Source of the DNA: Myxococcales bacterium
GTDB taxonomy: Bacteria > Myxococcota_A > Polyangia > Fen-1088
Direction: 5' to 3'
Length of the DNA stretch: 62,560 nt
Assembly (NCBI GenBank): GCA_025350815.1
Contig: JANXXE010000048.1
Span: forward strand, 1 to 62,560
The notes beneath the pieces are model-generated. The model was not told the origin of the DNA. It was given only the letters and a program-made list of their open reading frames with translations, and did no database searches. Made by a program: the position numbers and the translations under genes. Shown here piece by piece: positions 1 to 59,197 of this stretch (position 1 is its first letter; each line of letters opens with the position of its first letter).

Positions 1-9
1 AAAGAAGCC

Positions 10-3083
<3,074 letters not shown>

Positions 3084-3087
<4 letters not shown>

Positions 3088-3533: not shown

Positions 3534-3534
3534 A

Positions 3535-4992: not shown

Positions 4993-5202
4993 GGGATCTC
5001 CTTCATCGTGAGGTTCGCGCATTTCCTCTGTGGCGGCGGCATCCTAGGACACAAAGGTTGGATTCGGGTGCAGATCTTCCCAGCGACGGAAATCACCGGG
5101 GCTCTCGTCAATCTGGGTAGACGAAGAGGGGACCAACAAGGCACCTAATGGGTTGTGGAATCTCATAGACCACACCCGGCTGTCTACCGGCGGCGCCGCC
5201 CG

Positions 5203-6300: not shown

Positions 6301-6414
6301 CGCAAAGGCGGCGCAGGATACACGATCAGCTGACCGTCGGGCAGATCGTGCGGCGACGGTCCGTCGACGACCGGCGCCGTTCGCTGGCCTTTCGACCACG
6401 GTCGTTGACTGCGC

Positions 6415-6420
6415 TAAAAT
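6415..6420 (+). promoter_or_regulatory. Possible -10 hexamer TAAAAT, 9 nt before a start codon
   Basis: TAAAAT matches TATAAT at five of six positions and lies in an AT-rich patch of otherwise GC-rich DNA. The following gene starts at 6430 without a Shine-Dalgarno. No convincing -35 is seen. Confidence 0.35.
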
Positions 6421-6429
6421 GCCTGACAA

Positions 6430-6795
6430 ATGGAAATCACCGAAACAGCCGATCTGGTTGCCTGCCTGACGGCCCCGCTGGCCGACGCCAAAGAATTGCT
6501 TGAGGCCTGCCTGGATGCCGATATTTCGGCAACGCTGGCGCGCGATGCGTGTTGCGGCAAGGGCGGCTGCGGGTGCAGTCCCAAGATGCAGTTGCTGGTG
6601 CCGCCGGCCGACGTGCCGCGCGTGGCGCTGTTGTTGCGGCAGCGCTGGGATGACTTGGCGGATCGCGAGGGCCTGGATGTTCAGGCTCAACGGGCGGATC
6701 TGGCGGAAGGTGAATTTGCCCCATGTCCCGCATGCAACACCGCAGCTGCCTTGAAGGACGGGGCGTGCAGCGACTGCGGTTTGCAGCTCGAATAA
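6430..6795 (+). CDS. Small DUF2007-like protein with C-terminal zinc ribbon
   Basis: 121 residues. The middle contains a Cys-rich loop (CCGKGGCGC) followed by a strand-helix unit (LLVPPADVPRVALLLRQRW) that resembles the ferredoxin-like DUF2007 signal-transduction fold. The C-terminus has two CxxC pairs (CPAC and CSDC) that can bind one zinc as a zinc ribbon. It is divergent from the glycosyltransferase (130 bp between starts) and 7 bp ahead of the phosphotransferase, so it is probably the first gene of that short operon. The function is not known; the zinc ribbon is clear from the sequence, the DUF2007 link is tentative. Confidence 0.75.
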   Translation: MEITETADLVACLTAPLADAKELLEACLDADISATLARDACCGKGGCGCSPKMQLLVPPADVPRVALLLRQRWDDLADREGLDVQAQRADLAEGEFAPCPACNTAAALKDGACSDCGLQLE

Positions 6796-6802
6796 ATTCG
6801 CT

Positions 6803-7864
6803 TTGAATGCACAGACGGTGACGGCCGCGATCCGGCAACGTGTCCTGCCGCATTACGACGGCCTGCGGGATGCGGCGATCACGCCGTTTGGCACGGGCCT
6901 CATCAATCAGACTTTCCGGGTCGACGCGCCGATGGGACGGTTTCTTTTGCAGAGGGTCAATCCGATCTTTCCCGTGGCCATTCAGGAAAACATCCGGGCC
7001 GTGACCGCCCGTCTGGCCGAAGCCGGCCTCGTTACGCCACGTTTGTTGCCGACCCTTACGGGGCAACCCTGTCTCGATCTGGGCCCGGGCGAGGTCTGGC
7101 GGATCATGACGTTCATCGATGGGGTCGCCTTCGAGGCCGTTGCCAGCGCCGCGCAGGCGCGGTCGGCGGGCGCGCTGGTGGCGCGGTTTCACCGGGCACT
7201 GGACGGCCTGCCGCACACGTTCTTGGGCATGCGTCCGGGCGTGCACGACACCCCCCGGCACATCGAAACCTTGCGCCGGGCCGTCGGTGAGCACATCGGA
7301 CACCGTCTCCACGGGTCGGTATCGACCCTGGCCGCGCAAATGATCCCGGCGGCCACCGCCATGCCGGCGCTGCCGGCCATGTCCGCCCAGATCTGCCACG
7401 GCGATCTGAAGTTCAACAACATCCTGTTCGCGGGCCCCGACGCCGCCGAACGCGATCGCGCCCTGTGCCTGATCGATCTTGACACCGTGGGTCCCATGTC
7501 ACTGGCGCATGAGATGGCCGACGCTTGGCGGTCGTGGTGCAACCGCAACGGCGAAGACCAGCCCGAGGCCGCGCTCGATCTCGACGTGTTCGCGGCCTCC
7601 GTCACGGGATACGAGGAAGGTCTGGAACGTTCGCTGACACAGGACCAGCGTCTCGCCTTCCTGCACGGGGCTGAGTGGATCAGTCTGGAACTCGGCGCGC
7701 GTTTCGCCGCCGATGCACTGAACGAAAGCTATTTCGGATGGCACCCGCAGCGCTTTGCGGGCCGCGGTGAGCACAACTGGGCCCGGGCGCGCGGTCAGTG
7801 GTCGTTACACCAGGCACTGCTGGCGTCCCGTCCGCAGCGGGCCCGCCTGCTGCGACTGGCCTGA
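6803..7864 (+). CDS. APH/choline-kinase-fold phosphotransferase (sugar kinase-like)
   Basis: 353 residues from a TTG start. The protein-kinase-like fold is shown by the Gly-rich loop FGTGLINQTF (near residue 30), the catalytic loop ICHGDLKFNNILF (Brenner motif, HGDxxxxN), and LIDLDTVG as the Mg-binding Asp. The organisation resembles N-acetylhexosamine 1-kinases (NahK-like) and other sugar or amino-sugar kinases more than antibiotic kinases, so a role in sugar salvage or glycan precursor supply is plausible. It lies directly after the zinc-ribbon gene and is likely cotranscribed with it. The substrate is not determined by the sequence. Confidence 0.85.
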   Translation: MNAQTVTAAIRQRVLPHYDGLRDAAITPFGTGLINQTFRVDAPMGRFLLQRVNPIFPVAIQENIRAVTARLAEAGLVTPRLLPTLTGQPCLDLGPGEVWRIMTFIDGVAFEAVASAAQARSAGALVARFHRALDGLPHTFLGMRPGVHDTPRHIETLRRAVGEHIGHRLHGSVSTLAAQMIPAATAMPALPAMSAQICHGDLKFNNILFAGPDAAERDRALCLIDLDTVGPMSLAHEMADAWRSWCNRNGEDQPEAALDLDVFAASVTGYEEGLERSLTQDQRLAFLHGAEWISLELGARFAADALNESYFGWHPQRFAGRGEHNWARARGQWSLHQALLASRPQRARLLRLA

Positions 7865-8029
7865 ACCGGCCGGTGCGTCAGCCGCTTCGCAGTCGGCTCG
7901 CCGTTTGTGGGCAGGTTTCTTTGCACCCTCGCCCTAAGCGTGTGAATTTGTTGTTGTCGTGTCGTGGCCCGCAACGTGCATTCACCAGCGCTCCTCGACA
8001 CTGTGTTCAAGAAAGGAAGGCTGTTTGCC

Positions 8030-11046: not shown

Positions 11047-11165
11047 CCGCGACCGGGGCGCACCCGTCACGCGATCTCAAGGACAGGTGTTAGCGTTTCC
11101 TTGGCTTCGAAACCGCCTCGAAATGGGGTTGCGCGCTGGGGCTTCTAATCGTATTGCTAAAAGCC

Positions 11166-14100
11166 ATGCGTAGGTCCTGCCTGCTGCGGTCCGTTATCTT
11201 CACCGCACCCCTGGCCTTCGCGCTGCCTGTGCAGGCCGCCGGCGTCGATTTCGCTCGGGAAATTCAGCCTATTCTCGAGGCTTCTTGCATCAAGTGCCAC
11301 GGGCCCGAAAAGAAGTCGGGCCAGCTACGACTGGACGCTCGAACCCTCGCGTTTCAAGGTGGCGTTTCAGGGCCGGTCATTGTCCCGGGCAAGGGCGCCG
11401 AAAGCCCCCTTTACACGGCCCTCGTCGACCCCGATCCCGATGAACGCATGCCGCGCAAGGCGCCCGCCCTGACGAAGGCGCAGATCGGCCTGATTCGCGC
11501 CTGGATCGATCAGGGCGCCGTGTGGCCGGGGGGCCCTGCCGCGGCCGAGCCGGTGGTCCAGAAGCACTGGTCGTATCGAAAGCCGCTTGCTGCTGCGCTG
11601 CCGGCCGTCAGTCGCGCAGGCTGGGTGCGCAATCCGGTGGATGCCTTTGTTCTGGCCCGTCTCGACAAGGAAGGGTTGGCGCCGTCGCCGGAGGCCAATC
11701 GGACGGCGCTGATTCGTCGGGTCAGCCTGGATCTCATCGGGTTGCCGCCGACGGTGGCCGAAGTGGATGCCTTTGTGGCCGACAAGCGCCCCGACGCCTA
11801 CGAGTGCCTTGTCGATCGTCTGCTGGCCTCTGCCCACTATGGCGAGCGGCAGGCGCGCATGTGGCTGGATCTCGCGCGCTATGCGGATTCGAACGGCTAC
11901 GAGAAGGATCGTCTGCGAACGATGTGGAAGTACCGCGACTGGGTCATCCGCGCATTCAATCAGGACATGCCGTTCGACCGCTTTACCATCGAACAAATCG
12001 CCGGCGACATGCTGCCAAACCCGACGACGGACCAGCTGATTGCGTCGGGGTTCCACGGCAACTCGATGCTGAACGAAGAGGGCGGCGTCGATCCCGCCGA
12101 GGCGCGCTTCCAGGTCATGGTGGATCGGGTCAACACCACGGGCGCCGTGTGGCTGGGCACGACAGTGGCGTGCGCGCAGTGCCACAACCACAAATACGAT
12201 CCGATCTCGCAGAAAGAGTATTACGGGCTGCTGGCCTTCTTCGACAACACGCGCACCAAGGACGGCGCCGACAAGTTCGCGGGCAACGAGGCGCCACTCG
12301 AAGATCTGCAGATCCAGGTGCCGACGCCCGACCAAGAAGGGGCGCTGCGCAAGCTGGAGGCGGAGATTGCGAAGCGCGAAGGGGCGTTGGAAACGCAGAC
12401 GCCGGCGCTCGACGTGGCCGAGGCAGCCTGGCGGTCGCAGAAGAGGACTGTGCTCGAAAGCTGGCATGTGCTGTCAGCCGGAAAAACCAGCACCGAATCC
12501 GCGGCGGCGGGGCGGGGCAAGGGCGCGCTGCTGACGCTGCAAAAAGATGGCTCACTGTTGGCGCAGGGCCCAAGTCCGATCAAGGACAGCTACACGGTGG
12601 CCGGACGTACCACCGATGGGCCTATCCAGGCGATTCGTCTCGAGGTGCTGCCGGATCCTAGCCTGCCAGGGCAGGGTCCCGGGCGGGGGCCGAATGGCGG
12701 TTTCGTGCTGTCCGAGTTCAAGGTCACCGCCGCGCCGGCGGATCGCTCGACAAGCGCCCGGCCCGTTGGGTTCAGCACCTCAAGTGCCGACGTGGGTGGT
12801 CCGGGCTCGGAGGTGGCGCTGGCCATTGACGGGCAATTGGATACCGGGTGGGCGGTGGGCACGGCGTCGGGTGCCGCGCATCAGGCCAGCTTCGGCCTTG
12901 CCTCGCCGGTCGGTTCACAGGGCCGCACCACCGTGCTGACCGTGACTCTCGATTGCAAGACCGTTCATCCCCAACACACCTTGGGGCGGTTTCGCCTGTG
13001 GACCAGCAGCAACGGCGACGCGGCCGAACTGAAACTACCGGCCAACATCCAGGCGCTGCTGCTGGTGCCTGGGGGCAAGCGCACGGCGGCCGACGCTCAG
13101 GCACTGTCGGCCTATTACCGTTCGATCGCGCCCGAACTTGCCCCCGTGCGCACCGAAATCGCCGCCCTGCGGAAGAGAATCGCGGATCTCAAGATTCCGA
13201 CGGCGATAGTGATGGGCGAGAAGCCCACCTTCGAGCGACCTTCGACGTTTCTGCGGGTGCGTGGCGCGTACACCAGTCCGGGCGCCCGTGTCTACGCCAG
13301 CGTGCCCGCCATGCTCAACCCGCTGGGCGACAGCTTGCCGCCCAACCGCCTGGGGCTGGCACGCTGGCTGGTCGACAGGGAAAACCCACTCACCGGCCGG
13401 GTTATGGCGAATCGCTTGTGGGAACAGTATTTTGGCCGCGGCATCGTCGAGACCAGCGAAGATTTCGGGGCGCAGGGCTCGGCCCCTTCGCATCCCGAGT
13501 TGCTGGACTGGCTGGCGGCGACCTTGGTCGACAAGGGCTGGAGCGTGAAGGCGCTGGTCCGTCTGATGGTGACATCGGCGACCTACCGGCAAAGGTCGAA
13601 GGTGACGCACGATGCGCTGGAAAAGGATCCCTACAACCGGTTTTATTCCTATGCGCCGCGCTTCCGGGTCGAGGCCGAGATGATTCGCGACGTGGCACTG
13701 GCGGTCAGCGGTTTGTTAAGTCCCAAGATTGGCGGACCCAGCGTCTTCCCAGTCCAGCCCGACGGCATCTGGGACAACATCAGCTACGGGGTTGAAAAAT
13801 GGCAGACCGATACGGGGCCGGATCGTTATCGCCGCGGCCTATACACTTTCATGCGGCGAGCGGCGCCCTATCCGATGTTCACGACCTTCGATGCGACCAG
13901 TCGCGAGGTCTGTACCTTGCGGCGCGTGCGGACGAATACCCCTTTGCAGTCGCTGAACCTGCTGAACGATCCGGCCTTTGTCGAGGCGGCGCGTGCCCTG
14001 GCCGGGCGCATGGCGATCGAGGCGGGTCCCGATCCACGAGCCCGCGCGACACATGGTTTCCGGCTGTGTACGGCGCGCAAGCCGGTAGCCGCCGAGGTTG

Positions 14101-14279
14101 ACCGTCTGGTGGCGCTGTACCACAGCGAGCGCGAGAGGTTTGCCAAGCAGGGCGGCGCGGCCGAGGTTCTGCAGGGATTGAGTCCTGTTCCTTCCCCAGC
14201 CGCGCGCGATGATCTGGCCGCCTGGACGCTGGTTGCGAATGTGCTTTTGAATTTGGACGAGACGCAGACCAAGGAATGA
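11166..14279 (+). CDS. Secreted planctomycete-type cytochrome protein (PSCyt1 - DUF1549 - DUF1553), long form
   Basis: 1037 residues from the ATG at 11166 (a TTG 12 bases upstream is in frame but less likely). A Sec signal peptide (to about residue 24) leads to a PSCyt1 cytochrome-c-like domain with CIKCH at 41-45. DUF1549 follows with the hallmark CAQCH at 336-340 continuing into NHKYDP, giving a second CxxCH. DUF1553 is C-terminal ([15 protein letters not shown]). Between them, roughly residues 430-650, is an insert with a beta-sandwich, carbohydrate-binding look ([20 protein letters not shown]) that the paralogue at 41267 lacks. It overlaps no bases with but abuts the DUF1501 gene, forming a two-gene operon. 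The biochemical role of these families is unknown; a periplasmic redox role is implied by the haem motifs. Confidence 0.9.
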
Positions 14280-14282
14280 GTG

Positions 14283-15728
14283 ATGGACGAAGGTAACGAA
14301 CGACTGAAGAACATCACGCGGCGGCACTTCTTCCAGCAAGCCGGCTTCGGCATCGGAAGCCTGGCCCTGGCCGAGATCATGCGCGGCGAGGGTCTGGCGC
14401 GCGCCACCGGCCCGGCGCCCTTCGCCCTGCCGAAGCCGCATTTCGCCCCCAAGGCCAAGAACATCATCTTCTTGATGATGGCCGGCGCCCCGTCGGTGCT
14501 GGACATGCTGGACCACAAGCCCAGGCTGTCCGAGATGAACGGGCAGCCCTGTCCGGACAGCCTGATCAAGGGCGAACGTTTCGCGTTCATCAAGGGTGTG
14601 CCCCGGCTGCTGGGAAGCCCGTACACCTTCAAGCGCCACGGCCAGTCCGGCGCCGAGGTGTCCGATCTGATGCCGCATCTGGCGACGGTGGTCGACGACA
14701 TCGCCATCGTGCGTTCCATGTATACGACGCAGTTCAACCACGCCCCGGCGCAGGTCTTCATGAATACGGGTCACCAGATCGTGGGCCGCCCCAGCATGGG
14801 GGCGTGGCTGAGCTATGGCCTCGGCAGCGAGAATCGCGACCTGCCCGGTTTCGTCGTCCTGCTGTCGGGACAGAGCAATCCGGACGGCGGAAAGTCGTGC
14901 TGGGGCAGCGGTTATCTTCCGACCACTTTCCAGGGCGTCGAGTTCCGCAACACGGGTGATCCGGTCATGTTCCTGTCGAATCCGCGCGGCGTCCGGCCCG
15001 AGGCCCGGCGCAGCACGCTGGACGCGCTTGGCGATCTCAACCGCATGCGCCTGCAGGAGGTTGGGGATCCGGAAATCGGCACGCGCATCGCGGCGTACGA
15101 GCTGGCGTATCGGATGCAAACCAGCGTGCCCGAATTGATGGACGTGGCGCGCGAGCCTGCAGCCGTTCACGAGATGTACGGGACGCAGCCAGGCAAGGCG
15201 TCGTTCGCCAACAACTGCCTGCTGGCGCGGCGGCTGGTCGAGCGCGGTGTTCGTTTCGTGCAGCTTTACCACCGGGGCTGGGACCATCACGGCGCCGGCA
15301 AGAGCGACGATCTGATGCATGGGTTGCCCCTGCGCTGCAAAGAGACCGATCAGGCGGCCGCGGCCTTGATCAAAGATCTGAAACAGCGCGGCCTGCTGGA
15401 CAGCACCCTGGTTGTCTGGGGTGGCGAGTTCGGCCGGACGCCCATGAACGAGGAGCGCGCGGGGTCCAAGTTCCTGGGTCGCGATCACAACCCCAAGGCG
15501 TTCACGATGTGGATGGCCGGTGGCGGTATCAAGCCCGGCGTCACGGTGGGGGCGACCGACGATTTTGGCTATAACGCGGTCGAGGATCCCGTACACGTCC
15601 ACGATCTGCACGCCACGGCGCTGCACCTGATGGGACTCGACCACACCCGACTGACCTTCCGGTTCCAGGGGCGGGACTATCGATTGACCGACGTCATGGG
15701 CAACGTGGTGAAGAAGGTCCTGGCTTAG
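14283..15728 (+). CDS. DUF1501 Tat-exported protein (alkaline-phosphatase-superfamily-like)
   Basis: 481 residues. The ATG at 14283 follows an AAGGA and lies 3 bases after the stop of the cytochrome gene, so the two are translationally coupled. A Tat signal (RRHFF at 13-17) marks it for export in folded form. Family blocks include [19 protein letters not shown] near the N-terminus, WGGEFGRTP and [16 protein letters not shown] near the C-terminus. DUF1501 is placed in the alkaline phosphatase/sulfatase-like superfamily, which fits the metal-binding-like Asp/His residues (the GWDHH and GRDHN blocks). The partner gene is nearly always a DUF1549/DUF1553 protein. Substrate and reaction unknown. 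Confidence 0.9.
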
Positions 15729-41266: not shown

Positions 41267-43624
41267 GTGAACGCCGCGGGCCTCCTGTTTGGATACGCTT
41301 GGCTGGGTGTTCTGGCGCTGCCGCAGGTCGCGGTAGCGGCGGCCGCGATCCCGACCGTGGATTTCGCCCGGGACGTGCGGCCCATCCTGGCCAAGAACTG
41401 CTTTTCCTGTCATGGGGCGGACGACAAGGAACGCAAAGCCGGGTTGCGCCTGGATCTTGCCGACAGCGCCTTTGCCGACCATGCCGGAACGCGCGCCTTC
41501 GTGGCCGGTGCGCCCGATCGCAGCGACGCGTATCTGCGCCTGATTACGACAGACGCGGATGATCGGATGCCACCGACTGATTCGAAACACAACGTGTCGC
41601 CACAGGAGATTCAGGTCATCAAGGCCTGGCTGGCGCAGGGGGCGTTGTGGGACGGCAAGAGCCCGACGGTGGCCCCTGCCGCCGTGGAGGCGAAGGCGCC
41701 GCTTGGCAGCTACAGTCCGAAGGATCGCGCCTTGTGGTCCTTCGCGCCGCCCGCCAAGGTTGAGGTGCCCCAGTTTGCGAAGCCCGCCGACCAGGGCTGG
41801 GTCAGGTCGCCGGTCGATGCGTATGTCCTGCAGCGCCTGCACGGCGCGGGCCTTGCGCCGTCGCCCCGGGCGGACAACGTGACGTTGGTTCGGCGCCTGT
41901 ACTTCGATCTGATTGGTCTACCCCCTACGCCCGCGCAGATCGATGCTTTCACCACCGATCGCACGCCGGATGCGTATGCGCGGCTGGTTGAGCGCTTGCT
42001 GGCCAGTCCGCAATATGGTGAGCGATGGGGCCAGCACTGGCTGGATCTGGTGCGTTTTGCCGAGACGGACGGTTTTGAGTACGACACGCACCGGCCGGAC
42101 GCCTACCGGTTTCGCGACTATGTGATCAAGTCGTTCAACGACGACAAACCGTACGACCGTTTCGTCACGGAGCAAATGGGTGGGGACGAGCTGGCGGGCG
42201 AGCACGACGATGACTTGTTGGTGGCCGCTGGCTTCAATCGCCTGGGGCCCCTGCGCAAGAACGCCGGGAATCAGGCCGTGACCTCCAGTCGTAACGAGGT
42301 GCTGACCGAAATGACCAACGTCGTCGGCGCGGCGTTCCTGGGTGTGACCATCGGGTGCGCGCGTTGCCACGATCACAAATTCGACCCGATCAAACAGGCC
42401 GACTACTACCGCATCCAGGCCTTCTTCGCGGCCACGCAGGACCGGGATGTGCCGCGCTACACGCCCGACGAACAGGTGCTGTGGAAGCAAAAGGTTGCGC
42501 TGGTCCAGGACGAGATAAGGCCGCTGCGGGCTGCGTTGCGGAGGGCTTCGGACGATGAACGCCCGAAGTTGGAACAGAAGATCATGGATGCGGAGGATCG
42601 CCTGCCCGCCCCGTTGCCGGCCCTGTACAGCGTCTCTCACGATGTCGAGAAGAAGTCGCCCGTTCATGTTTTGGTGCGAGGGCAGTACCAACAACCCGGC
42701 CCGCGCGTGGGGATGCGGCCGCTTGGCGTCCTGCTACCCGACGGCGCCGCCGAACTGCCGGACGACACGCGTCAGCCGCGCACGACGCTGGCCAAATGGA
42801 TCGTCGATCCGAAAAACCCCCTGACGGCGCGGGTGATGGCGAATCGCATCTGGCTGTACCACTTTGGCCGCGGCCTGGTCGCCACTCCCAACGATTTCGG
42901 AAACAACGGCATGCGCCCGTCGCACCCCGAATTGCTTGACTGGCTGGCCGGGGCCTTCGTCGAGCGGGGGTGGAGCATCAAGGAGATGCACCGGATCATT
43001 CTGAACAGCGCGACTTACCAGCAGTCGTCGTTGGCCGCGGATGCCGTGGGGCGGGCGAAGGATCCCGAAAATGTGTTGCTGTGGCATATGAACCGCCACC
43101 GCCTGGACGCCGAGCAGCTGCGTGACACCTTGCTGTCGGTCGCGGGCACACTGAACCTGAAGGCCGGTGGGCCAAGCGTGATGGTGCCCATCGACAAAGA
43201 GCTCATTGATGCGCTGTACAAGCCGCTGCAATGGCAGATTACCCGCGATGCGTCCGAGCACCAGCGACGCAGCATCTATCTAATTGCGAAACGCAATCTG
43301 CCGTTGCCGTTCATGCAGGTGTTCGACGCGCCTGACATGCAGGCCAGTTGCCCCCGACGTGAAGCGACCACACACGCCCCGCAGGCGCTGGAACTCTTGA
43401 ATGGCGCCTTGTCCAACACACAGGCTGAAGCCCTGGCGCGGCGGCTGCGCACCCAGACCGGGTCGAATGTCCGTGCGCAGGTGGCGCTGGCGTACCGGTT
43501 GGTCACGGGGCGGCCGCCCACAGCGAAAGAACGGGCGCTGGCACTGCGCTTCCTGCAGAGGCAGCCATTGCGCGAATTCGCCGTGGCGATGTTCAATCTC
43601 AACGCCTTTGTTTACGTGAACTGA
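41267..43624 (+). CDS. Secreted planctomycete-type cytochrome protein (PSCyt1 - DUF1549 - DUF1553), short form
   Basis: 785 residues from a GTG. Sec signal peptide to about residue 26, PSCyt1 with CFSCH at 45-49, DUF1549 with CARCH at 364-368 continuing into DHKFDP, and DUF1553 with [15 protein letters not shown]. Compared with the protein at 11166 it lacks the approximately 220-residue beta-sandwich insert between the two DUFs. It is 2 bases before the DUF1501 gene, giving the same two-gene operon. Function unknown; the two CxxCH motifs imply haem attachment. Confidence 0.9.
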
Positions 43625-43625
43625 C

Positions 43626-45044
43626 ATGACCCTCGACAGCCGACCGACGCGGAATCGCCGCGAATTTTTGACCGATGCCTTCTGCGGATTTGGGTCGCTG
43701 GCGTTCGCGTCGCTGCTGGCGCAGCAGCAGGCACGGGCGTCGGTGACGAATCCGCTGGCCGCAAAGACGCCGCCGAAAGCGGCGCGGGCCAAGTCGGTCA
43801 TCTTCCTGTTCATGGCCGGGGGCCCCAGCCACATGGAGACCTTCGATCCCAAGCCCCTGCTGAACAAGCTGCACGGACAGAAACGCCCGGCCAGTTTTGG
43901 CGAGGCGAAGTATCAGTTCGTCCAGCCCAACGCCAAGCTTCTGGGCACCAAGCGCACCTTCGCCCGCTACGGCCAAAGCGGCATCGAGGTCTCCGACCTG
44001 TTTCCGCTGACCGCCGCGTGTGTCGATGATCTGGCTGTCTTGCGTTCCTGCCACGGCGACATGGTCGTGCACTCGGCGGCGCAGTACCAGTTGTTCACGG
44101 GGCGCGTGGTACCGGGTTTTCCCAGCATGGGCTCGTGGGCGGTTTATGGCCTTGGCACCGAAAGCGACGCCCTGCCGGCGTACGTCGTCCTGCCCGATCC
44201 CAAGGGCGCGCTTGAGGCCGGGCTGCCGATGTACGGCAACGGTTTTCTGCCGGCGGTCTACCAGCCGACGATGTTTCGCCCGGGTGCGCGGCCCGTGTTG
44301 AACCTGGAACTGCCGCCGGGTGTGTCCGCGGCCGGACGGCGCAAGACCATCGATCTTGTGCGAAGTCTCAATCAGGCGCAGATGGCGCCCGAGGACGGTG
44401 AGCTGGCCGCGCGCATCGGCGCCTACGATCTGGCGTTCAAGATGCAGACCGAGGCGCCGCGTCTGTTCGATTTGTCGAACGAGCCGAAGGAGACCCTGGC
44501 TCTCTATGGCATCGGGCAGCAGCCGACTGACGATTATGGGCGTCGTTGCCTGCTGGCGCGGCGGCTGGTCGAAAAGGGAGTGCGCTTTGCCTGTGTTGTT
44601 TCGGGCGGTGGGCCGGGGACGTTGCAGTGGGACGCGCACGACGACATCGAAGAGAATCATCTGCGCATGAGCGGCCACACTGATCGCCCGGTGGCGGCGC
44701 TGCTGCAAGATCTGAAACGGCGCGGGCTGTTGGACACGACCCTTGTGGTGTGGGGCGGCGAATTTGGTCGCTCGCCGGAATCACAGGGTTCAAAGGGTCG
44801 CGATCACCACAATCTGGGCTTTACGATGTGGATGGCGGGCGGCGGCATCAAGGGCGGCCGGGTGGTCGGCGCCACCGACGAGATCGGCCTGCGCGCCGTC
44901 GACAAGCCGTACCATTTTCGTGATGTGCACACGACGATTCTGAACCAGCTGGGCCTGGATCAGGATCTGCTGACGTACCTGCACCAGGGGCGCAAAGAGC
45001 GGCTGACCGAGGTGCAGGGCAAGGTCATCCAGGAAATTATCTAG
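43626..45044 (+). CDS. DUF1501 Tat-exported protein, second copy
   Basis: 472 residues, ATG one base after the stop codon of its partner. Tat signal RRREFL-type (RREFL at 11-15). Same blocks as the copy at 14283: FLFMAGGPSHMETFDPKPLL, then WGGEFGRSPES and [16 protein letters not shown]. The copies are clearly homologous but not recent duplicates. Its stop is 6 bp before the end of the convergent ALDH gene, so transcription of the two units meets here. Confidence 0.9.
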   Translation: MTLDSRPTRNRREFLTDAFCGFGSLAFASLLAQQQARASVTNPLAAKTPPKAARAKSVIFLFMAGGPSHMETFDPKPLLNKLHGQKRPASFGEAKYQFVQPNAKLLGTKRTFARYGQSGIEVSDLFPLTAACVDDLAVLRSCHGDMVVHSAAQYQLFTGRVVPGFPSMGSWAVYGLGTESDALPAYVVLPDPKGALEAGLPMYGNGFLPAVYQPTMFRPGARPVLNLELPPGVSAAGRRKTIDLVRSLNQAQMAPEDGELAARIGAYDLAFKMQTEAPRLFDLSNEPKETLALYGIGQQPTDDYGRRCLLARRLVEKGVRFACVVSGGGPGTLQWDAHDDIEENHLRMSGHTDRPVAALLQDLKRRGLLDTTLVVWGGEFGRSPESQGSKGRDHHNLGFTMWMAGGGIKGGRVVGATDEIGLRAVDKPYHFRDVHTTILNQLGLDQDLLTYLHQGRKERLTEVQGKVIQEII

Positions 45045-45050
45045 GGCGGC

Positions 45051-46430
45051 TCAGGCGCCGCGCAGGTGCCAGGCCTTCGGCTGCAAAAAGGCTCGGATGC
45101 CAGCGTGGGACATCGTCGATCCAATGCCGGAATGCTTGCGCCCGGTCCAGGGCAGGCGCGGGCTGACACGGTCGCAGCAGTTCCAGTAGACGCTGCCGGC
45201 GGCGATCTGGCGCAGGATGCGCGTGGCGCGGGCGCTGTCCTTGCTGTAGACGCCGGCGGTCAGGCCGTAGTCGGTGTCGTTCATCAGGCGCACGGCTTCG
45301 TCGTCGTCTGACACTGACTGGATACCGATGATGGGACCGAAACTTTCGTCGCGCATGACCTGCATCTCGTGGCTGGCATTCGCCAGCACCGTCGGTGCGA
45401 AGTAGAAACCGGTGCGATCCAGACGCTTGCCGCCGCTGCGCACCTTGGCGCCGTGTTTGACGGCGTCCGCCACCTGGGACGCCAGTACGTCCAGCTGCGC
45501 CTCGCGGGCCAAAGGCCCGATGTACGTGGCCTCGTCCTCGGGATCGCCGACTACGAACTTGTCCACGGTCGCGACGAATGCCTCGACGAACGCGTCGTAG
45601 ATCCGTTTGTGCACATAAAGCCGTTCGACCGAGCAACAGCTTTGGCCGGCGTTGTAAAAAGCCCCGTCTGCCAGGCCTTCGGCCGCTCGGGCAACGTCGA
45701 CGTCTTCGCACACGTACGTGGGATCTTTTCCGCCCAGTTCAAGCTGCGTGTGAATCAGGCGGGGCGCAACGGTTTCGGCGACCTTGCGCCCGGTGCCGTA
45801 GCTGCCGGTGAAGAAGACGCCGTTGATGGGCTGGCGCAACAGGGCCGCGCCGATGTTTCCGGCCCCGACCACGTGCAGGAACGCATCCGCGGCGACACCC
45901 GCCTGTTGCAGCAGATCGGCAATGCGCAGACCCGTCATGGTTGCGAACTCGGAGGGCTTGTACAGGACGGCGTTGCCGGTCAACAGTGCCGGGACGAAAA
46001 CGTTCGAACCGACGAAGTACGGGTAATTCCAGGCCGATATGTTGGCAATCACGCCCAGGGGCTCGTGCGCGATGATTTCTTTCAGCTTGGGCCTTGCCGG
46101 ATCTCCGTCGCTGAAGACCACCTCGTCGGACATCACAGCGGCGGTCTCGCCCAGGAAGTAGTCGATGCGGCTGGGCATGGCGCCGAGCTCGTTGCGCGCC
46201 TGCTTGATGGGCTTGCCCATCTCGCGCGTCAGGACCAGGGCCAGTTCGTCGGCGTTGGCGGTCAGTAGGGCGCCGAAGCGGCGCAGGGCCTCCACGCGCG
46301 TCGTCAGGGGTGTCCGTGCCCATTCGACCTGGGCCTCGCAGGCGCGCTGGTATTTGGCGGCCACGCTGCCGGCCGTGTCGGCGGGGATGTCGGCCAGTAA
46401 CTTGTGGGTGGCGGGGTTGACGATCTTCAT
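45051..46430 (-). CDS. NAD(P)-dependent aldehyde dehydrogenase
   Basis: 459 residues. Rossmann and substrate tunnel of the ALDH superfamily, catalytic Cys in GQSCCSVERLYVH and catalytic Glu in LELGGKDP. Fourth and last gene of a tight operon; its ATG overlaps the PuuD-type stop by four bases. In that context it would oxidise a gamma-glutamylated aminoaldehyde to the acid, as PuuC does in putrescine catabolism. Length and motifs are normal. Confidence 0.92.
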   Translation of the reverse strand: MKIVNPATHKLLADIPADTAGSVAAKYQRACEAQVEWARTPLTTRVEALRRFGALLTANADELALVLTREMGKPIKQARNELGAMPSRIDYFLGETAAVMSDEVVFSDGDPARPKLKEIIAHEPLGVIANISAWNYPYFVGSNVFVPALLTGNAVLYKPSEFATMTGLRIADLLQQAGVAADAFLHVVGAGNIGAALLRQPINGVFFTGSYGTGRKVAETVAPRLIHTQLELGGKDPTYVCEDVDVARAAEGLADGAFYNAGQSCCSVERLYVHKRIYDAFVEAFVATVDKFVVGDPEDEATYIGPLAREAQLDVLASQVADAVKHGAKVRSGGKRLDRTGFYFAPTVLANASHEMQVMRDESFGPIIGIQSVSDDDEAVRLMNDTDYGLTAGVYSKDSARATRILRQIAAGSVYWNCCDRVSPRLPWTGRKHSGIGSTMSHAGIRAFLQPKAWHLRGA

Positions 46431-47212
46431 GGGGCCTTTCGACGGGCGTCCACCTCGGCGAGAAAGCCGCGCAGAAGCACACGGGGGTCAAGGTTGGCGG
46501 AATCGCCGGTGGTCAGCAGAAATTCGGGATGCCATTGCACGGCATAGGCGAAGGGGGCGGGACCGCCCGGCAGCGGCGCAAGGCGAATCGCCTCGACGAT
46601 CCCGTCGGGCACCGAGCGCGCCTCGACCACCAACCCGGCGCCCAGTTTGTTGAGTGCCTGGTGGTGCACGCTGTTCACGCGTCCGCCCGCGCTGCCGTAC
46701 CACGCGCCGATGCGCGAGCCCGCCGTGAAGGCGACTTCGTGGAAGTTGTGATCGTAGATTTCCCAGTTGCGGTGCCCCAGTGCGCCCGGCTGCTGGGTGG
46801 CGATGTCCTGGTACAGCGAGCCGCCAAGCGTGACGTTGAGCAACTGCGCGCCCCGGCACACGCCCAGCACCGGCTTGTCGGCGGCCAGGCACAGGCGAAC
46901 GAGTTCCATCTCGTAGATGTCGCGGTGGTAATCGCCTTCCCATTCGGGCCGCAGCGGCGTCTCGCCGTAGTTCAGCGGCGACATGTCCGAGCCGCCCGCC
47001 AGAACCAGGCCGTCGATTTCCTCTATCAGATCCGTTGCAGTGACGGCGCCGCCGGCGGTGGGCAACAGCAGCGGCACGGCGGCCTCGCTCATGATCCAGT
47101 GCAACAACGACTGTTCGGTATAAAGCAGCGTCTTGCCCTTGAACAGATTGCGCTGGGGGTCGGCGGGAAGGAAACAGGCCGATACCCCGATGCGGGCGCG
47201 CCGGGTGCTCAT
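46427..47212 (-). CDS. Gamma-glutamyl hydrolase, PuuD type (class I GATase fold)
   Basis: 261 residues. The nucleophile Cys is in GVCRGAQLLNV, the catalytic His-Glu in QWHPE; these are the PuuD/gamma-Glu-GABA hydrolase motifs. It would release glutamate and the free amino acid at the end of a gamma-glutamylation pathway. Overlaps the genes on both sides by four bases each, so it is translationally coupled to the Fe-ADH and ALDH genes. Confidence 0.9.
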   Translation of the reverse strand: MSTRRARIGVSACFLPADPQRNLFKGKTLLYTEQSLLHWIMSEAAVPLLLPTAGGAVTATDLIEEIDGLVLAGGSDMSPLNYGETPLRPEWEGDYHRDIYEMELVRLCLAADKPVLGVCRGAQLLNVTLGGSLYQDIATQQPGALGHRNWEIYDHNFHEVAFTAGSRIGAWYGSAGGRVNSVHHQALNKLGAGLVVEARSVPDGIVEAIRLAPLPGGPAPFAYAVQWHPEFLLTTGDSANLDPRVLLRGFLAEVDARRKAP

Positions 47213-48408
47213 GAAGGGCGCAGGGCGCGGTCGAACAACTGGCGGAAATCCTGCGGCGAAACCGTCTTGGGATTGTTGGCGTGGCAGACGTCGGCGACGG
47301 CGATCTCCACCAAACGGTCCCGATGTTCGGGCCGTGCGCCGCCACCCGGGTCGGCCAGGCTGCGCGGAATGCCGATGGTCGCCTTTAGGTCATCGAGCCA
47401 CGCCAGGAAGGTCGGCGCGCTGGGGTTGGCCACGCCGGCCGCGGCCGCCAGATCGGCGAGGCGGGTCGGCACGGTGTCTTGGTTGAAGGCCATTGCGTAC
47501 GAGATCATGATCCCGTTGGCCAGCCCGTGGTGCAGATCGCAGACCGTCGACAGCGCATGCGCCAGCGAATGCGTGACGCCCAGACCCTTTTGGAAGGCGA
47601 CGCCGCCCATCAGCGCCGCGTTCAACATCATGCCGCGCGCTTCACGGTGTCCCTCGTCGGTCAGCAACGCAACCTCGCCGGTTTCTATGCGCCGGGCGTA
47701 GTCCACGCAGCGGGGCAGGGCGCGCGCCACCAGACGGACGCCTTCCAGGGCGATGCCGTCGCACAGCGGTTGAAAGCCCTTGGCCAGGTACGACTCGACC
47801 AGGTGGGTCAGGGCGTCCATTCCGGTTGCCGCCGTGACCTTTGACGGTAGGCCCATCGTCAGATCGGGATCGACGAACACGCGCGACGCCAGCAGGCGCG
47901 GCGAGAAGATGATCTTTTTGACGTGCGTGGCGTCGTCGGACACCACCGTGCTGCGTCCGACCTCGCTGCCGGTTCCGGCGGTGGTGGGCACCGCGATGGT
48001 GTACGGGATGTCCTTGTCGATGGCGCGCGCGCCGGGTTTTTCGTCCTCGTAGTCGAACAGATCGCCAGGATGACGCGCCATCAGGGCGATGGCCTTGGCC
48101 ACGTCGATGGCCGCGCCGCCGCCGACGGCGACGATGGCGTCGGCCTTGTGGGCCGCGAAGGCCTGCACGCCGGCCGTGACCTGGGATTTGACCGGATTGC
48201 CCCACACGCCCGGGTAAACCGCGACGTCCAGACCCGCAGCGGCGACCAGCGTCCGCGTGTCGGTGATGACCGGCAGCGCCGCAAGACCCTTGTCGGTCAC
48301 GATGAGGGGGCGCTGCTTGCCCGCCTCTTTCAGGGCATCGGGCAGCAGGCGAATCGCCCCGGGGCCGAACTGGATGCGCGTCGGAAAATTGTATTGATAT
48401 ATTGCCAT
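47209..48408 (-). CDS. Iron-dependent alcohol dehydrogenase
   Basis: 399 residues, group III ADH. Metal ligands are visible as the Asp and His of GMDALTHLVE, the His of VTHSLAHALS and the His of LHHGLANG; NAD-binding block VGGGAAIDVAKAIA. It sits between the glutamine-synthetase-like gene (13 bp upstream) and the PuuD gene (4-bp overlap). The place normally held by an FAD amine oxidase (PuuB) is taken by this alcohol dehydrogenase, which points to a gamma-glutamylated amino alcohol as substrate. Confidence 0.92.
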   Translation of the reverse strand: MAIYQYNFPTRIQFGPGAIRLLPDALKEAGKQRPLIVTDKGLAALPVITDTRTLVAAAGLDVAVYPGVWGNPVKSQVTAGVQAFAAHKADAIVAVGGGAAIDVAKAIALMARHPGDLFDYEDEKPGARAIDKDIPYTIAVPTTAGTGSEVGRSTVVSDDATHVKKIIFSPRLLASRVFVDPDLTMGLPSKVTAATGMDALTHLVESYLAKGFQPLCDGIALEGVRLVARALPRCVDYARRIETGEVALLTDEGHREARGMMLNAALMGGVAFQKGLGVTHSLAHALSTVCDLHHGLANGIMISYAMAFNQDTVPTRLADLAAAAGVANPSAPTFLAWLDDLKATIGIPRSLADPGGGARPEHRDRLVEIAVADVCHANNPKTVSPQDFRQLFDRALRPS

Positions 48409-48421
48409 GGTGGTGTCGTCC

Positions 48422-49795
48422 TCAGATGATCTCGAAGTAGCGCTGTAGCTCCCAGTTGGTCACGGCCTTGCCGAACTGGCGCCATTCCCAGTGCCGGGTG
48501 GCGGCGAAATGCTCGACGAAGGTTTTGCCGAACAGATCGCGCGCGATGGCGGATTTTTCCAGGCGCATCGTGGCGTCGTGCAGATCGCGCGGCAGGGGAA
48601 CAGCCTTCGTGTCGCCGTAGCCGCTGCCGACGATGGGCGCCGCATCCAGCTTCAACTTGTGCTCGATGCCGTAAAGCCCGCTGGCCAGCGCCGCGGCCAG
48701 CGCCAGATAGGGGTTCGTATCCGAGCCGTTGACCCGCGTTTCGAGGCGGGTCGATTTCGTGCTGCCAGGGATCACGCGCAGCGCGGTCGTCCGGTTGTCC
48801 ACGCCCCAGTTGACCCGAGTGGGTGCCCAGGCGCCCTCGACCAGGCGCTTGTAGCTGTTCACCGTCGGCGCAAAGAAAGGCAAGATCTCCGGCATGCAGC
48901 GCATTTGCCCCGCCAGATAGCTTTCGAACAGCGGGCTCATCTTGTGCGGATTGCGCTCATCGAAAAACAGATTCGTGCGGTGGTCCTTGTCCCACAGACT
49001 TTGGTGGATGTGGCCGCTGCATCCGGGCAGCTGGCTATTCCACTTGGCCATGAAGGTCGGCATGACGCCAAAACGATGGCCGATCTCTCTCGCGCCCGTC
49101 TTGAAAAGAATGGCGCGGTCGGCAGCCTCGACCGGCTCGCAATACAGCAGCGCGGCCTCGAACACGCCGGGCCCGGTCTCGGTGTGCAACCCCTCGATGG
49201 GCACGCGGAAGGCGGCCATCTCGTCCATCAGCGCGTTCAAGAACGGCGCATTCTGATTCATGCGCAGAAGCGAATAACCGAACATCCCCGGCGTCAGGGA
49301 TTCAAGGCGCGTGAAGTTCTTTTCCGCCAGGGACTGCGGCGTCTCGTGAAAATTGAACCATTCATATTCAAGCGAGGTCAGCGCCTCGAATCCGGCGGCG
49401 CGCAAACGGTCGACCACGCGTTTGAGAAGCTGGCGTGGGCAAATTTCCAGGGGCGCGCCCTTGCCGTCGACGAATTCGCCCAAAAAGAACGGGACGTTGT
49501 TGTCCCAGGGGACTTCCCGAAAGGTCGACAGGTCCAACCGCGCGGCGGCATCGGGATAACCCGTGTGCCACCCGGTATAGGCCGCGTTGTCGTAGCAGAC
49601 GTCGCCGGAATCCCAGCCGAAGACAACACTGCAAAACCCAAAACCGGAACCCGCGGCCGACAGGAACTTGTCCTTGTGCAGGTACTTGCCGCGCAGGACG
49701 CCGTCGATGTCCGTCACGGCGACCTTGACCTTCGTGGCCTCTGACTTCAGGACCCGGTCGACGATCTTTTTCGACGCAGCAGCGACTTTGGGCAT
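48422..49795 (-). CDS. Glutamine-synthetase-family gamma-glutamyl-amine ligase (PuuA/GlnA4/IpuC type)
   Basis: 457 residues from the ATG at 49795; a TTG at 49822 would add 9 residues, and neither has a good Shine-Dalgarno. The GS fold is shown by ESxGPxE-like TETGPGVFEAA, the GSGxHxH-like CSGHIHQSLWD and NGSDTNPYLALAA near the C-terminus. The N-terminal part is unlike true GlnA, and the gene heads an operon with Fe-ADH, gamma-glutamyl hydrolase and ALDH, so it most likely joins glutamate to an amine rather than to ammonia. Known relatives act on putrescine (PuuA), ethanolamine (GlnA4) and isopropylamine-derived alaninol (IpuC). Confidence 0.85.
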   Translation of the reverse strand: MPKVAAASKKIVDRVLKSEATKVKVAVTDIDGVLRGKYLHKDKFLSAAGSGFGFCSVVFGWDSGDVCYDNAAYTGWHTGYPDAAARLDLSTFREVPWDNNVPFFLGEFVDGKGAPLEICPRQLLKRVVDRLRAAGFEALTSLEYEWFNFHETPQSLAEKNFTRLESLTPGMFGYSLLRMNQNAPFLNALMDEMAAFRVPIEGLHTETGPGVFEAALLYCEPVEAADRAILFKTGAREIGHRFGVMPTFMAKWNSQLPGCSGHIHQSLWDKDHRTNLFFDERNPHKMSPLFESYLAGQMRCMPEILPFFAPTVNSYKRLVEGAWAPTRVNWGVDNRTTALRVIPGSTKSTRLETRVNGSDTNPYLALAAALASGLYGIEHKLKLDAAPIVGSGYGDTKAVPLPRDLHDATMRLEKSAIARDLFGKTFVEHFAATRHWEWRQFGKAVTNWELQRYFEII

Positions 49796-49824
49796 GGGTG
49801 ACGTCGCGAAGTATTGGGCCAAGG

Positions 49825-49849
49825 GGCCCCCCGTGCAAGAAGGGGGGCC
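49825..49849. promoter_or_regulatory. GC-rich 8-bp hairpin upstream of the GS-like operon
   Basis: GGCCCCCC (49825-49832) and GGGGGGCC (49842-49849), perfect 8-bp stem with a 9-base loop. On the operon strand it lies between the CLC stop and the ligase start. No U-run follows, so it is not a classical terminator; it may act as a transcript boundary or attenuator. Confidence 0.5.
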
Positions 49850-49858
49850 GCGCGGATG

Positions 49859-51112
49859 TCAGTGCGCCCGATGGCGATACAGCCCCCGCCGGCCCGACAG
49901 CAGGTGCGCGACGCCGGTGACGACCGCGACGTGGGGCAACAGGGCGGCGCCCAATAATTCAACCACCATGATTGACAGCGCCAGGGGCGCTTTGGCCGCA
50001 GCGCCGAAGACCGCGCCGAGGCCGACCGCCGCGCCCAGTGCCAGCGGAAGGCCCAGCGCGTGGGCGAGCACGCTGCCCAGGGTGGCGCCGACGAAGAACA
50101 GGGGCGTCACTTCGCCGCCCAGGTAGCCAGCCGCGAGTGTCACGGTCGTGAATAGCAGCTTGGCCGCAAAGGCGTAAACCAGCAGCTTCGGATCCGAAAA
50201 GGCACGCACGATCGTCGGCACCCCGAGGCCGAGGTAGTCGCTGCTGCCGACCAACTTCCACAGGAACACCACCACCATGCCGCCCACGAACATGCGCATC
50301 GGCAGGCGCGGAATCCGCCGTTCGAACTGGCCTTTGAGCGCATGCGTCGACGCGACGAAGGTGGCCGCAGCCAGGGCCATGGCCGCGCCGATCAGCAGCA
50401 GTTTGCCGATCAGTGCGGGCGACAGCGCCATCGTCGGTGGCACGGGGTACGCAGTGTGAACGACGCCCAGGGCCCGTGTGACCCGATCACCGATCAGCGC
50501 GGCGCCGAGAGCCGGCAGCAGCGCCCGGTAGTCGATTCGCCGCAGCCCGACCACCTCCAGCGCAAAGACCACACCGGCGATTGGTGTACCGAAGACCGAA
50601 CCGAATCCCCCGGCGATGCCGGCCGCCAGTAGGGCCCGGCGCAGATCCCGACTGGCGCCAAAACGATGCGCGATCTCGTCGGCGAGACTGGCGCCCATCT
50701 GGACGGCGGTGCCCTCGCGCCCGGCGCTGCCGCCGAACAAATGCGTCAGCACGGTGCCGACCAGCACCAGGGGCGCCATGCGCACGGGCAGCTGCGCCAG
50801 ATCGTTGTGAATGGTGTCGATGATCAGGCTGCTGCCGCCCTTCATCGACGTCCCGATGCGCTCGTAGACAAGCCCGATAAGCAGGCCGGCCAGCGGCAGT
50901 GTGTAAACCATCACCTCGTGAGCGGCACGGAATTGCGTTGCGCCGTCGAGAAGTCGCAAAAACACGGCGGACGCCACGCCGCACAGGACGCCGACGAGGC
51001 TTGCCAGCGCCACCCACTGCACGACGATTCCCGCCCGTTGCGCGCGGGTCATGCCGGCATGCGCTCGGAACGTGGGGAAATCGCCATGCGGCTGCAGTTT
51101 TCTTGCCACCAT
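49859..51112 (-). CDS. CLC-family anion transporter, possibly the fluoride (CLC-F) type
   Basis: 417 residues from the ATG at 51112; a downstream ATG at 51052 is also plausible. About ten to twelve membrane helices. The motif that is GREGP in ordinary CLC proteins reads GREGT (131-135), as in CLC-F fluoride/proton antiporters, and the surrounding TVLTHLFGGSAGREGTAVQM is characteristic of that clade. The first selectivity loop, GSSLI in place of GNNLI, departs from it. The gene stops 27 bases upstream of the TTG alternative start of the ligase gene and could share its transcript. Role: fluoride or chloride export, with fluoride favoured. Confidence 0.85.
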   Translation of the reverse strand: MVARKLQPHGDFPTFRAHAGMTRAQRAGIVVQWVALASLVGVLCGVASAVFLRLLDGATQFRAAHEVMVYTLPLAGLLIGLVYERIGTSMKGGSSLIIDTIHNDLAQLPVRMAPLVLVGTVLTHLFGGSAGREGTAVQMGASLADEIAHRFGASRDLRRALLAAGIAGGFGSVFGTPIAGVVFALEVVGLRRIDYRALLPALGAALIGDRVTRALGVVHTAYPVPPTMALSPALIGKLLLIGAAMALAAATFVASTHALKGQFERRIPRLPMRMFVGGMVVVFLWKLVGSSDYLGLGVPTIVRAFSDPKLLVYAFAAKLLFTTVTLAAGYLGGEVTPLFFVGATLGSVLAHALGLPLALGAAVGLGAVFGAAAKAPLALSIMVVELLGAALLPHVAVVTGVAHLLSGRRGLYRHRAH

Positions 51113-51255
51113 CGGCCATCTCACGCAAGGCGGGGGCCCTCGATCCAAACTGCGTCGACTCAGCTGGTGCGCCCCGTAGTTTCTTGCCAGCCGCATAAAC
51201 CGCGCGCAAAATCGCCCCCTTTTCGCCACAGGGGACAGGGGGGCGACGACCAATC

Positions 51256-57640: not shown

Positions 57641-59197
57641 ATGTACTCAGCTCTTTGCGCAGTCGTAGTCCTAGCCGCCAGTCCAGCCGCGCACCCGCGC
57701 GTCGCGGTTGGTAATTTCTTTGCGGAATCGAACTCGCTGTATCCGCGCATCGTGCCGATGACCGGCAGCGACACCCCGCCTGAACGGGAAAAGTGGCTTG
57801 CCGATGCCGCCAAGGAAAATACGATAACCACCGGCGTGGTCGAGGCGGGCATCAGGCTGGGCCTGGATCTTCAGCCCGTGCACACGGCGCGCGCCCCGTC
57901 GCTAGGCTCGGTCGAGCGGGCGTCCTTCGAAAGCCACGTGGGTAAGTTGATTGCAGACCTCAAGCGCGCGCAGCCGCCGTTTGCCGGGGTCATCCTGAAT
58001 CTGCACGGCGCCATGGTTGTCGATGGGTTTCCCCACGGCGACGCCGAACTTGTCCACCGCGTGCGCACGGCGATGGGCCCGAAATTCCCGATTGTCGTGA
58101 CGCACGACTTTCACGCAAATGTCGCGCCCGAGATCGTCGAGAATTCGGATGTCCTGATCACGTTCAAGGAAAACCCGCACGTCGACACCAAAGAACGGGG
58201 CATCCAGGCGTCGACGATCATGGCCGGCATCCTGTCGGGCAAGCTGCACCCGGTGCAGGCGCTGGTGAAGCCGCCCATGGTCTTCAACATCGTCTATCAG
58301 GACACCTTCCACGCGCCGCTGAAGGCGATCGTGGATGAATCCCGGCGCATGGAAAAGATGGACCCGAAGATCCTCGCGGTTAGCTTTTCGGGCGGCTACC
58401 AGTATGCCGACGTGCCGCAGATGGGACCCAGTGTCATCGTCGTCACCGACGGCGACAAGGATCACGCCCGGCGCGAGGCGCAGCGGCTGTCGGATATGGT
58501 GTGGGCGCTGCGCGACCGTCTGGTGATGCGCGCGCCCGATGCGGCCGCAGCGGTGCGCATGGCGCAGCAGAACGACAAGTTTCCCGTGGTGCTGATGGAC
58601 ACGGGTGACAATGTCGGCGGTGGCTCGGCGGGGGACGGCACGGCGCTGCTGGATCAGCTGCTGCAACAGCACGCCACGGGATGGGTGATGACCATCGCAG
58701 ACGCCCAGGCCAATGAGGCTGCGTTTCGCGCTGGTGTGACCGGAACCTTCGACTTCATGGTCGGCGGCAAGACCGACAAAATGCACGGCGTTCCGATCCA
58801 CGTGCGCGGCCGTGTGAAGGCGCTGACCGACGGGGCTTTTGTCGAGACCGAGGTCCGCCATTCGGGCCGCCGCTACCACGACATGGGTCCGACCGCGGTT
58901 ATTCTCGTCGAGGGTTCCACTCGCGATTTGCCGAATCTTCTGCTTTTGACCAAGACGCCGACGACCCCCTACAGCCTGCAGCAGATCGTCAGCAACGGCG
59001 TCTACCCGGAACGCCAGCACATCCTGGTCGCCAAGGGCACCACGGCCCCGCGCGCCGCGTACGAGCCCGTCGCCGCGCGCATCATAGAGGTGAATACGCC
59101 GGGCGCCACCGACGTGAACCCCGCGCATTTCACCTACCGCAACGTGCGCCGCCCGCTGTTCGGCCTGGACGACAACAAGGTGCCGACCAAACGCTGA
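57641..59197 (+). CDS. M81 metallopeptidase, MlrC (microcystinase C) family
   Basis: 518 residues, ATG after GGAGGG. An N-terminal hydrophobic stretch (about 1-17) suggests export, unusual for the family. The zinc-binding parts of M81 (LNLHGAMV, THDFHANVAPEIV) are in the N-terminal domain and the C-terminal MlrC domain has MDTGDNVGGGSAGDGT. Family members hydrolyse peptides or acyl-amino bonds and the name comes from microcystin degradation; the natural substrate here is unknown. Follows the GMC operon after 118 bp, in which I see no gene. Confidence 0.9.
   Translation: MYSALCAVVVLAASPAAHPRVAVGNFFAESNSLYPRIVPMTGSDTPPEREKWLADAAKENTITTGVVEAGIRLGLDLQPVHTARAPSLGSVERASFESHVGKLIADLKRAQPPFAGVILNLHGAMVVDGFPHGDAELVHRVRTAMGPKFPIVVTHDFHANVAPEIVENSDVLITFKENPHVDTKERGIQASTIMAGILSGKLHPVQALVKPPMVFNIVYQDTFHAPLKAIVDESRRMEKMDPKILAVSFSGGYQYADVPQMGPSVIVVTDGDKDHARREAQRLSDMVWALRDRLVMRAPDAAAAVRMAQQNDKFPVVLMDTGDNVGGGSAGDGTALLDQLLQQHATGWVMTIADAQANEAAFRAGVTGTFDFMVGGKTDKMHGVPIHVRGRVKALTDGAFVETEVRHSGRRYHDMGPTAVILVEGSTRDLPNLLLLTKTPTTPYSLQQIVSNGVYPERQHILVAKGTTAPRAAYEPVAARIIEVNTPGATDVNPAHFTYRNVRRPLFGLDDNKVPTKR

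Follow-up and report, generated by a model that had tools for sequence, protein, structure and literature searches.

The window analysed here is a 62,560-nucleotide stretch (positions 1–62,560) of contig JANXXE010000048.1 (assembly GCA_025350815.1) of a Myxococcales bacterium of the class Polyangia, and our subject is a cluster of four genes at positions 45051–49795, all on the minus strand. The four open reading frames are present as originally listed, and their Pfam matches bear out the identities given in a first-pass annotation made from the letters alone: a ligase of the glutamine synthetase (GS) family, an iron-containing alcohol dehydrogenase (Fe-ADH), a gamma-glutamyl hydrolase and an aldehyde dehydrogenase (ALDH). 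Judging from the sequences and from the company that their relatives keep, the cluster is probably an operon for the breakdown of a small amino alcohol, with ethanolamine the likeliest, a reading to which we give a probability of roughly 0.72. The genes and their predicted roles are as follows, with lengths in amino acids (aa):

48422–49795, minus strand: GS-like gamma-glutamyl amine ligase, 457 aa from ATG, Gln-synt_C 313.7 bits; predicted gamma-glutamylethanolamide synthetase
47209–48408, minus strand: iron-containing alcohol dehydrogenase, 399 aa, Fe-ADH 155 and ADH_Fe_C 123 bits; predicted to oxidise gamma-glutamylethanolamide to the aldehyde
46427–47212, minus strand: Peptidase C26 gamma-glutamyl hydrolase, 261 aa, Peptidase_C26 181 bits; predicted to split gamma-glutamylglycine
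45051–46430, minus strand: aldehyde dehydrogenase, 459 aa, Aldedh 449.8 bits; predicted to convert gamma-glutamyl-aminoacetaldehyde to gamma-glutamylglycine

A 13-bp gap separates the ligase and Fe-ADH genes, and the next two junctions are 4-bp ATGA overlaps, exactly the spacing first described; the four genes are probably co-transcribed. A TTG 27 bp upstream of the ATG is also a possible start of the ligase. The set of ligase, alcohol dehydrogenase (ADH), ALDH and gamma-glutamyl hydrolase that makes up the ethanolamine gamma-glutamylation pathway is complete in the operon, and no FAD amine oxidase (PuuB) occurs among its genes, as had been noted. The catalytic residues are intact in all four enzymes. 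In the Fe-ADH, the metal ligands D198, H202, H280 and H293 are conserved in 65 of 65 rows of the clade defined below; in the hydrolase, the Cys119-His228-Glu230 triad aligns with that of Escherichia coli PuuD, and the protein scores 88.9 bits on the PuuD model PRK11366, under the cut-off of 266; and in the ALDH, the catalytic Cys265, Glu231 and Asn135 are conserved. The active residues of these three enzymes are kept across the clade and are common to PuuD, PuuC and the Paracoccus enzymes. The best plasmid matches of the Fe-ADH include Fe-ADHs from operons composed of a TRAP transporter, ligase, ALDH and Fe-ADH; however, a match in Pseudosulfitobacter has no ligase beside it, so ADH similarity alone is no proof of the pathway.

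The ligase and its clade

None of the four operon proteins scores above the cut-off of an NCBIfam equivalog model. The ligase reaches 204 bits with type III GS (cut-off 470), 191.8 bits with GlnA (TIGR00653; cut-off 429) and 176.4 bits with gamma-glutamylputrescine synthetase (cut-off 650). The host, a 4.5 Mb draft genome, holds two GS-family genes, the window ligase and a GlnA-type gene on another contig. The metal- and substrate-binding residues of GS are kept in the ligase (E129, E131, E212, E220, H269, R339, R344, R355, E357 and R359 in GlnA numbering). Glu327, a flap residue of GlnA that helps to close the ammonium site, is replaced by Trp in the window ligase and in all 78 clade rows. 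The same position is occupied by Tyr in PuuA, Phe in 5dm3 and Trp in IpuC, and by Glu in the genome's own GlnA. Trp at position 327 together with Pro at position 264 forms the residue pattern of the clade; the ammonium-site positions 50, 53 and 179 lie in poorly aligned stretches and were left out of this reading.

The ligase phylogeny called for in the first-pass annotation was computed with GlnA, PuuA, IpuC of P. aurescens, the annotated Paracoccus and Ruegeria operon ligases, and PDB entry 5dm3, which we take to be the ethanolamine-type ligase of Chromohalobacter salexigens, an organism whose pathway was reportedly first described by Vetting et al. in 2015. GlnA4 (SCO1613) of Streptomyces coelicolor was left out. 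In the careful maximum-likelihood tree, the window ligase falls in a clade of its own (27 rows, support 100/100) that excludes all of these reference ligases, and a larger quick tree agrees. Its nearest kin come from four further genomes in the class (96/87), the Ruegeria operon ligase groups with 5dm3, and the clade lies nearer to IpuC than to 5dm3, weakly (89/61). A sister relation of the window ligase to permease-bearing Bdellovibrionota, seen in the quick tree with a support of 94, disappeared from the careful tree, which has more rows. We know of no characterised member of the clade.

Conserved gene order, permease adjacency and distribution of EutB

Scanning 84,980 species genomes, we kept 80 loci with close relatives of the ligase (59–74% identity). 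They come mostly from Burkholderiales and Bdellovibrionota, with some from Verrucomicrobia, one from a Planctomycetota-labelled bin and one from a Myxococcales-labelled bin. In 71 of the 80 loci, the gene immediately after the ligase encodes the Fe-ADH, and the full order ligase-ADH-hydrolase-ALDH on one strand is found in 57, several others being cut by contig ends; the grouping is thus far beyond chance adjacency. A GNAT acetyltransferase of ∼170 aa is inserted between the ligase and the Fe-ADH in a number of Burkholderiales, among them some Ramlibacter and Polaromonas, at these places:

L047, 10732–11241, with similar insertions in L049–L051, L057, L058, L066, L067, L070, L076 and L077
further loci: L083, L086, L088, L100, L102 and L104

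Other variations of the cassette were also seen. A family 5 (peptide/nickel-type) solute-binding protein lies between the ligase and ADH genes in L059, L069, L093, L097, L099 and L112 and upstream of the ligase in L105 and L109, where it replaces other transporters beside the ligase, and the C26 hydrolase is present in two tandem copies in L065, L082 and L084.

Three lineages contain clade members whose ligase gene is directly preceded by a gene for an ethanolamine permease (TIGR00908): Bdellovibrionota-type loci (L046, L052, L053, L056 and L060, the last with 413.8 bits against a cut-off of 381.75), one genome from the class of the window (G204, locus L139; 434 bits, ∼50 bp from the ligase) and Burkholderiales (L062, with 606 bits, and L075). 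In two Polaromonas loci, a TIGR00908 relative below the cut-off occupies the same place.

The second line of evidence is the distribution of EutB, a subunit of the ethanolamine ammonia-lyase EutBC, which is B12-dependent and yields acetaldehyde and ammonia, not glycine. Across 192 genomes of the window's class, a wider ligase group is present in 91 and canonical EutB in 52, with an overlap of 0 versus 24.6 expected (Fisher, 6e-19), and the same exclusion is seen at the genus level (overlap 1 versus 14.5 expected). The window genome itself follows this pattern, with the ligase present and EutB absent. Among the 50 permease-bearing genomes of the class, 48 have either a wider-group ligase or canonical EutB. 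The exclusion repeats in a second, unrelated group, a Burkholderiales family in which the clade ligase occurs in 26 genomes and EutB in 42 (overlap 1 versus 7.2 expected, p = 0.0015), and EutB is absent from all 25 of the tested host genomes of clade members outside the window's class. As a separate observation, a divergent EutB-like protein (∼450–465 bits, open frames >700 aa) co-occurs with the ligase in G140, G148, G157, G158, G169, G170 and G188.

Because of the permease adjacency, the EutB exclusion and the coverage of permease-bearing genomes, ethanolamine, which would yield glycine, is preferred to alaninol or isopropylamine and is our best call for the substrate. The first-pass annotation had offered ethanolamine leading to glycine and alaninol leading to alanine on equal terms; the former gains from these data and the latter is less favoured.

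Several observations weigh against this assignment. TIGR00908 permeases are absent from the window genome, and no pathway transporter or regulator adjoins the window operon. The class-wide EutB exclusion mixes ligase clades; with the analysis restricted to the window's clade within its class, EutB is absent in 10 of 10 genomes, which is weak (p about 0.04). The genomes are, moreover, related by ancestry, which makes the p-values for exclusion optimistic. Four relatives in the window's class (L140–L143) have no hydrolase beside the ligase. Finally, functions differ within the sister clade: a Legionella plasmid operon there combines ALDH and Fe-ADH with a GATase-like gene, whereas other operons carry class III aminotransferases and Pot-type polyamine transporters (L115 and L120), so the substrate has switched in the near neighbourhood of the window's clade.

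Proposed pathway, related systems and alternative substrates

We infer the substrate and every reaction of the window operon from sequence. In the proposed scheme, the GS-like ligase would use ATP to join the gamma-carboxyl group of glutamate to the amine of ethanolamine, forming gamma-glutamylethanolamide. The Fe-ADH would oxidise the free hydroxyl to give gamma-glutamyl-aminoacetaldehyde, the ALDH would convert this to gamma-glutamylglycine, and the C26 hydrolase would release glycine and regenerate glutamate. The glutamyl tag would mask the amine, so a free aminoaldehyde would never be formed. This order of steps, from a glutamylated amino alcohol through aldehyde and acid to an amino acid and glutamate, had been suggested at the outset and is the one that the relatives support best.

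The same route has been published for other bacteria (PMC10132767, PMC6529630), and glutamate-tag chemistry for ethanolamine is therefore not new. The ethanolamine operon of Phaeobacter MED193 and C. salexigens encodes ETAGA, GAADDH, GETADH, GGAH and the TRAP transporter EtoVWX, and its pathway is based on proteomics and transporter binding (PMC10132767). Annotated Paracoccus and Ruegeria operons, with a TRAP transporter, ligase, ALDH and Fe-ADH, match it. The four-step logic is common to this type and the window operon; however, the window ligase belongs to another clade than 5dm3, the gene order differs, the hydrolase is of the C26 type (N-formylglutamate-amidohydrolase type in Paracoccus), and a TRAP transporter and an RpiR regulator are lacking. 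In S. coelicolor, GlnA4 (SCO1613) has been proposed to start a pathway of ethanolamine glutamylation, alcohol and aldehyde oxidation and an amidohydrolase step, of which only the GlnA4 step was biochemically shown (PMC6529630). The order of steps resembles the window scheme, but the enzyme named for alcohol oxidation there is a short-chain dehydrogenase (PMC6529630), and the one proposed here is the Fe-ADH.

The Ipu pathway, encoded on plasmids of Paenarthrobacter aurescens TC1, shares with the window operon a GS-like ligase, an amino-alcohol intermediate and a GATase-type hydrolase. It differs in having a P450 and a short-chain dehydrogenase (SDR) in place of the Fe-ADH, and IpuC, 38–39% identical to the window ligase, lies in a separate clade. 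The parallels with Ipu and GlnA4 drawn in the first-pass annotation thus hold for the route and fail for the ligase lineage, at least with regard to IpuC. With the E. coli Puu pathway, the operon has in common gamma-glutamyl tagging, a PuuD-type hydrolase and a PuuC-type ALDH fold, whereas Puu uses the FAD oxidase PuuB and the aminotransferase PuuE where the window has Fe-ADH, and PuuA is distant (31% identical). An ADH in place of the amine oxidase, which had been put forward as distinctive, is indeed present; it is not new in itself, since an iron-containing ADH is found in the annotated operons of Paracoccus, Ruegeria and Legionella as well. EutBC would act on the same presumed substrate with a complementary distribution, and it is an unrelated enzyme.

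Among the alternatives, the one that survives best keeps the chemistry and changes the amino alcohol to alaninol, 3-aminopropanol or a mixture, with alanine or beta-alanine as products and ethanolamine as one substrate of several. The four activities would suit any amino alcohol, and the weak affinity of the clade to IpuC, an isopropylamine-pathway ligase, points the same way. Nevertheless, we consider it unlikely, as the window locus has no P450/ferredoxin system beside the ligase, unlike the ipu clusters, and as permease adjacency and EutB exclusion both favour ethanolamine.

A different context was found in part of the relatives. PhnW, associated with 2-aminoethylphosphonate (AEP), is encoded upstream of the ligase in 34 of the 80 loci, within ∼150 bp in 32 of those, and all of these loci are labelled Burkholderiales, Betaproteobacteria or, more loosely, Proteobacteria. 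Where enough sequence is available, genes for a PhnS2-T2-U2 transporter are usually present as well, and PhnR, PhnA and a PhnY-like (phosphonoacetaldehyde-dehydrogenase-like) gene are frequent; these last three lie opposite to the ligase cassette and PhnS2-T2-U2/PhnW. The cassette follows PhnW inside such clusters in these loci:

∼1–8000 of each of L047, L055, L057, L058, L061, L071–L074, L077, L091, L098 and L111: ligase cassette after PhnW within an AEP cluster

Within the papers that could be searched, our literature searches returned no reported link of AEP with glutamine synthetase or ethanolamine catabolism, and the phosphonate gene-context papers examined make no mention of glutamine synthetase. 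It is a tentative idea, and we would not bet on it, that the Burkholderiales cassette and the AEP genes form one unit that scavenges AEP and ethanolamine, the two common C2-amine head groups, or that the cassette serves an undescribed gamma-glutamyl aminophosphonate branch, with the window copy as a free-standing module. That the whole clade handles an amine linked to AEP, with ethanolamine secondary, is less probable still: the frequent position of the ligase behind PhnW and PhnS2-T2-U2 speaks for it, but these clusters mostly already hold a complete-looking AEP set (PhnW, PhnA and the PhnY-like gene), AEP lacks the hydroxyl on which the Fe-ADH would act, no phn genes lie beside the cassette at the window or Bdellovibrionota-type loci, and the sole PhnW relative in the window genome scores below the cut-off.

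If the operon served the gamma-glutamylation of a putrescine-type polyamine and the ADH did something unrelated, this would account for the PuuD- and PuuC-like hydrolase and ALDH and for the polyamine-related look of some sister-clade operons. This reading appears very improbable, because the operon has neither amine oxidase nor aminotransferase, the ligase falls far short on the PuuA model (176 of 650 bits), PuuA lies far outside the clade in the tree, and Fe-ADH so regularly adjoins the ligase (71 of 80 loci). That the ligase is another true glutamine synthetase, unrelated to its neighbours, can practically be dismissed: the GS fold and catalytic residues are conserved, yet Glu327 is lost, the GlnA and type III scores are far under the cut-offs, the genome has a separate GlnA, and the operon is strongly conserved.

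Surroundings of the operon and implications

Upstream of the ligase, on the same strand, lies a CLC chloride-channel gene (49859–51253), and a candidate structure was found between the two:

49825–49849, minus strand: GC-rich hairpin of 8 bp in the CLC–ligase intergenic gap, from a predicted fold of 49790–49870

This hairpin possibly separates the CLC and ligase transcripts; the folded stretch as a whole has a z-score of just −1.2, there is no T-run after the hairpin, and it is absent from the hits of the terminator scan. Promoter and terminator scans gave nothing clearly above chance. Downstream, a gene that appears by eye to be DUF1553-like (43626–45044) lies on the opposite strand and is convergent with the operon. 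Gene pairs resembling DUF1549/DUF1553 (PSD1-type), also judged by eye, occur twice in the window (11154–15728 and 41267–45044); such pairs are typical of Planctomycetota. An M81 family (MlrC-like) metallopeptidase is encoded at 57641–59197.

As far as we have checked, three features are new: the separate ligase clade with its conserved four-gene order and C26 hydrolase, the complementary distribution of this clade and EutB, and the embedding of the cassette in AEP operons of Burkholderiales. Ethanolamine is a lipid breakdown product, and the preferred reading, ethanolamine catabolism by gamma-glutamylation, would extend glutamate-tag breakdown of this compound to a clade spread across Polyangia, Bdellovibrionota, Burkholderiales and Verrucomicrobia. 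The Trp at position 327 and Pro at position 264 offer a means to stop annotating genes of this clade as glutamine synthetase. In the window's class, the operon would stand in for the B12-dependent EutBC lyase of other members; if this is true, as many as roughly half of the genomes sampled from the class would use a B12-independent route for ethanolamine instead of EutBC, and genomes deemed incapable of using ethanolamine for want of eutBC may often be capable of it.

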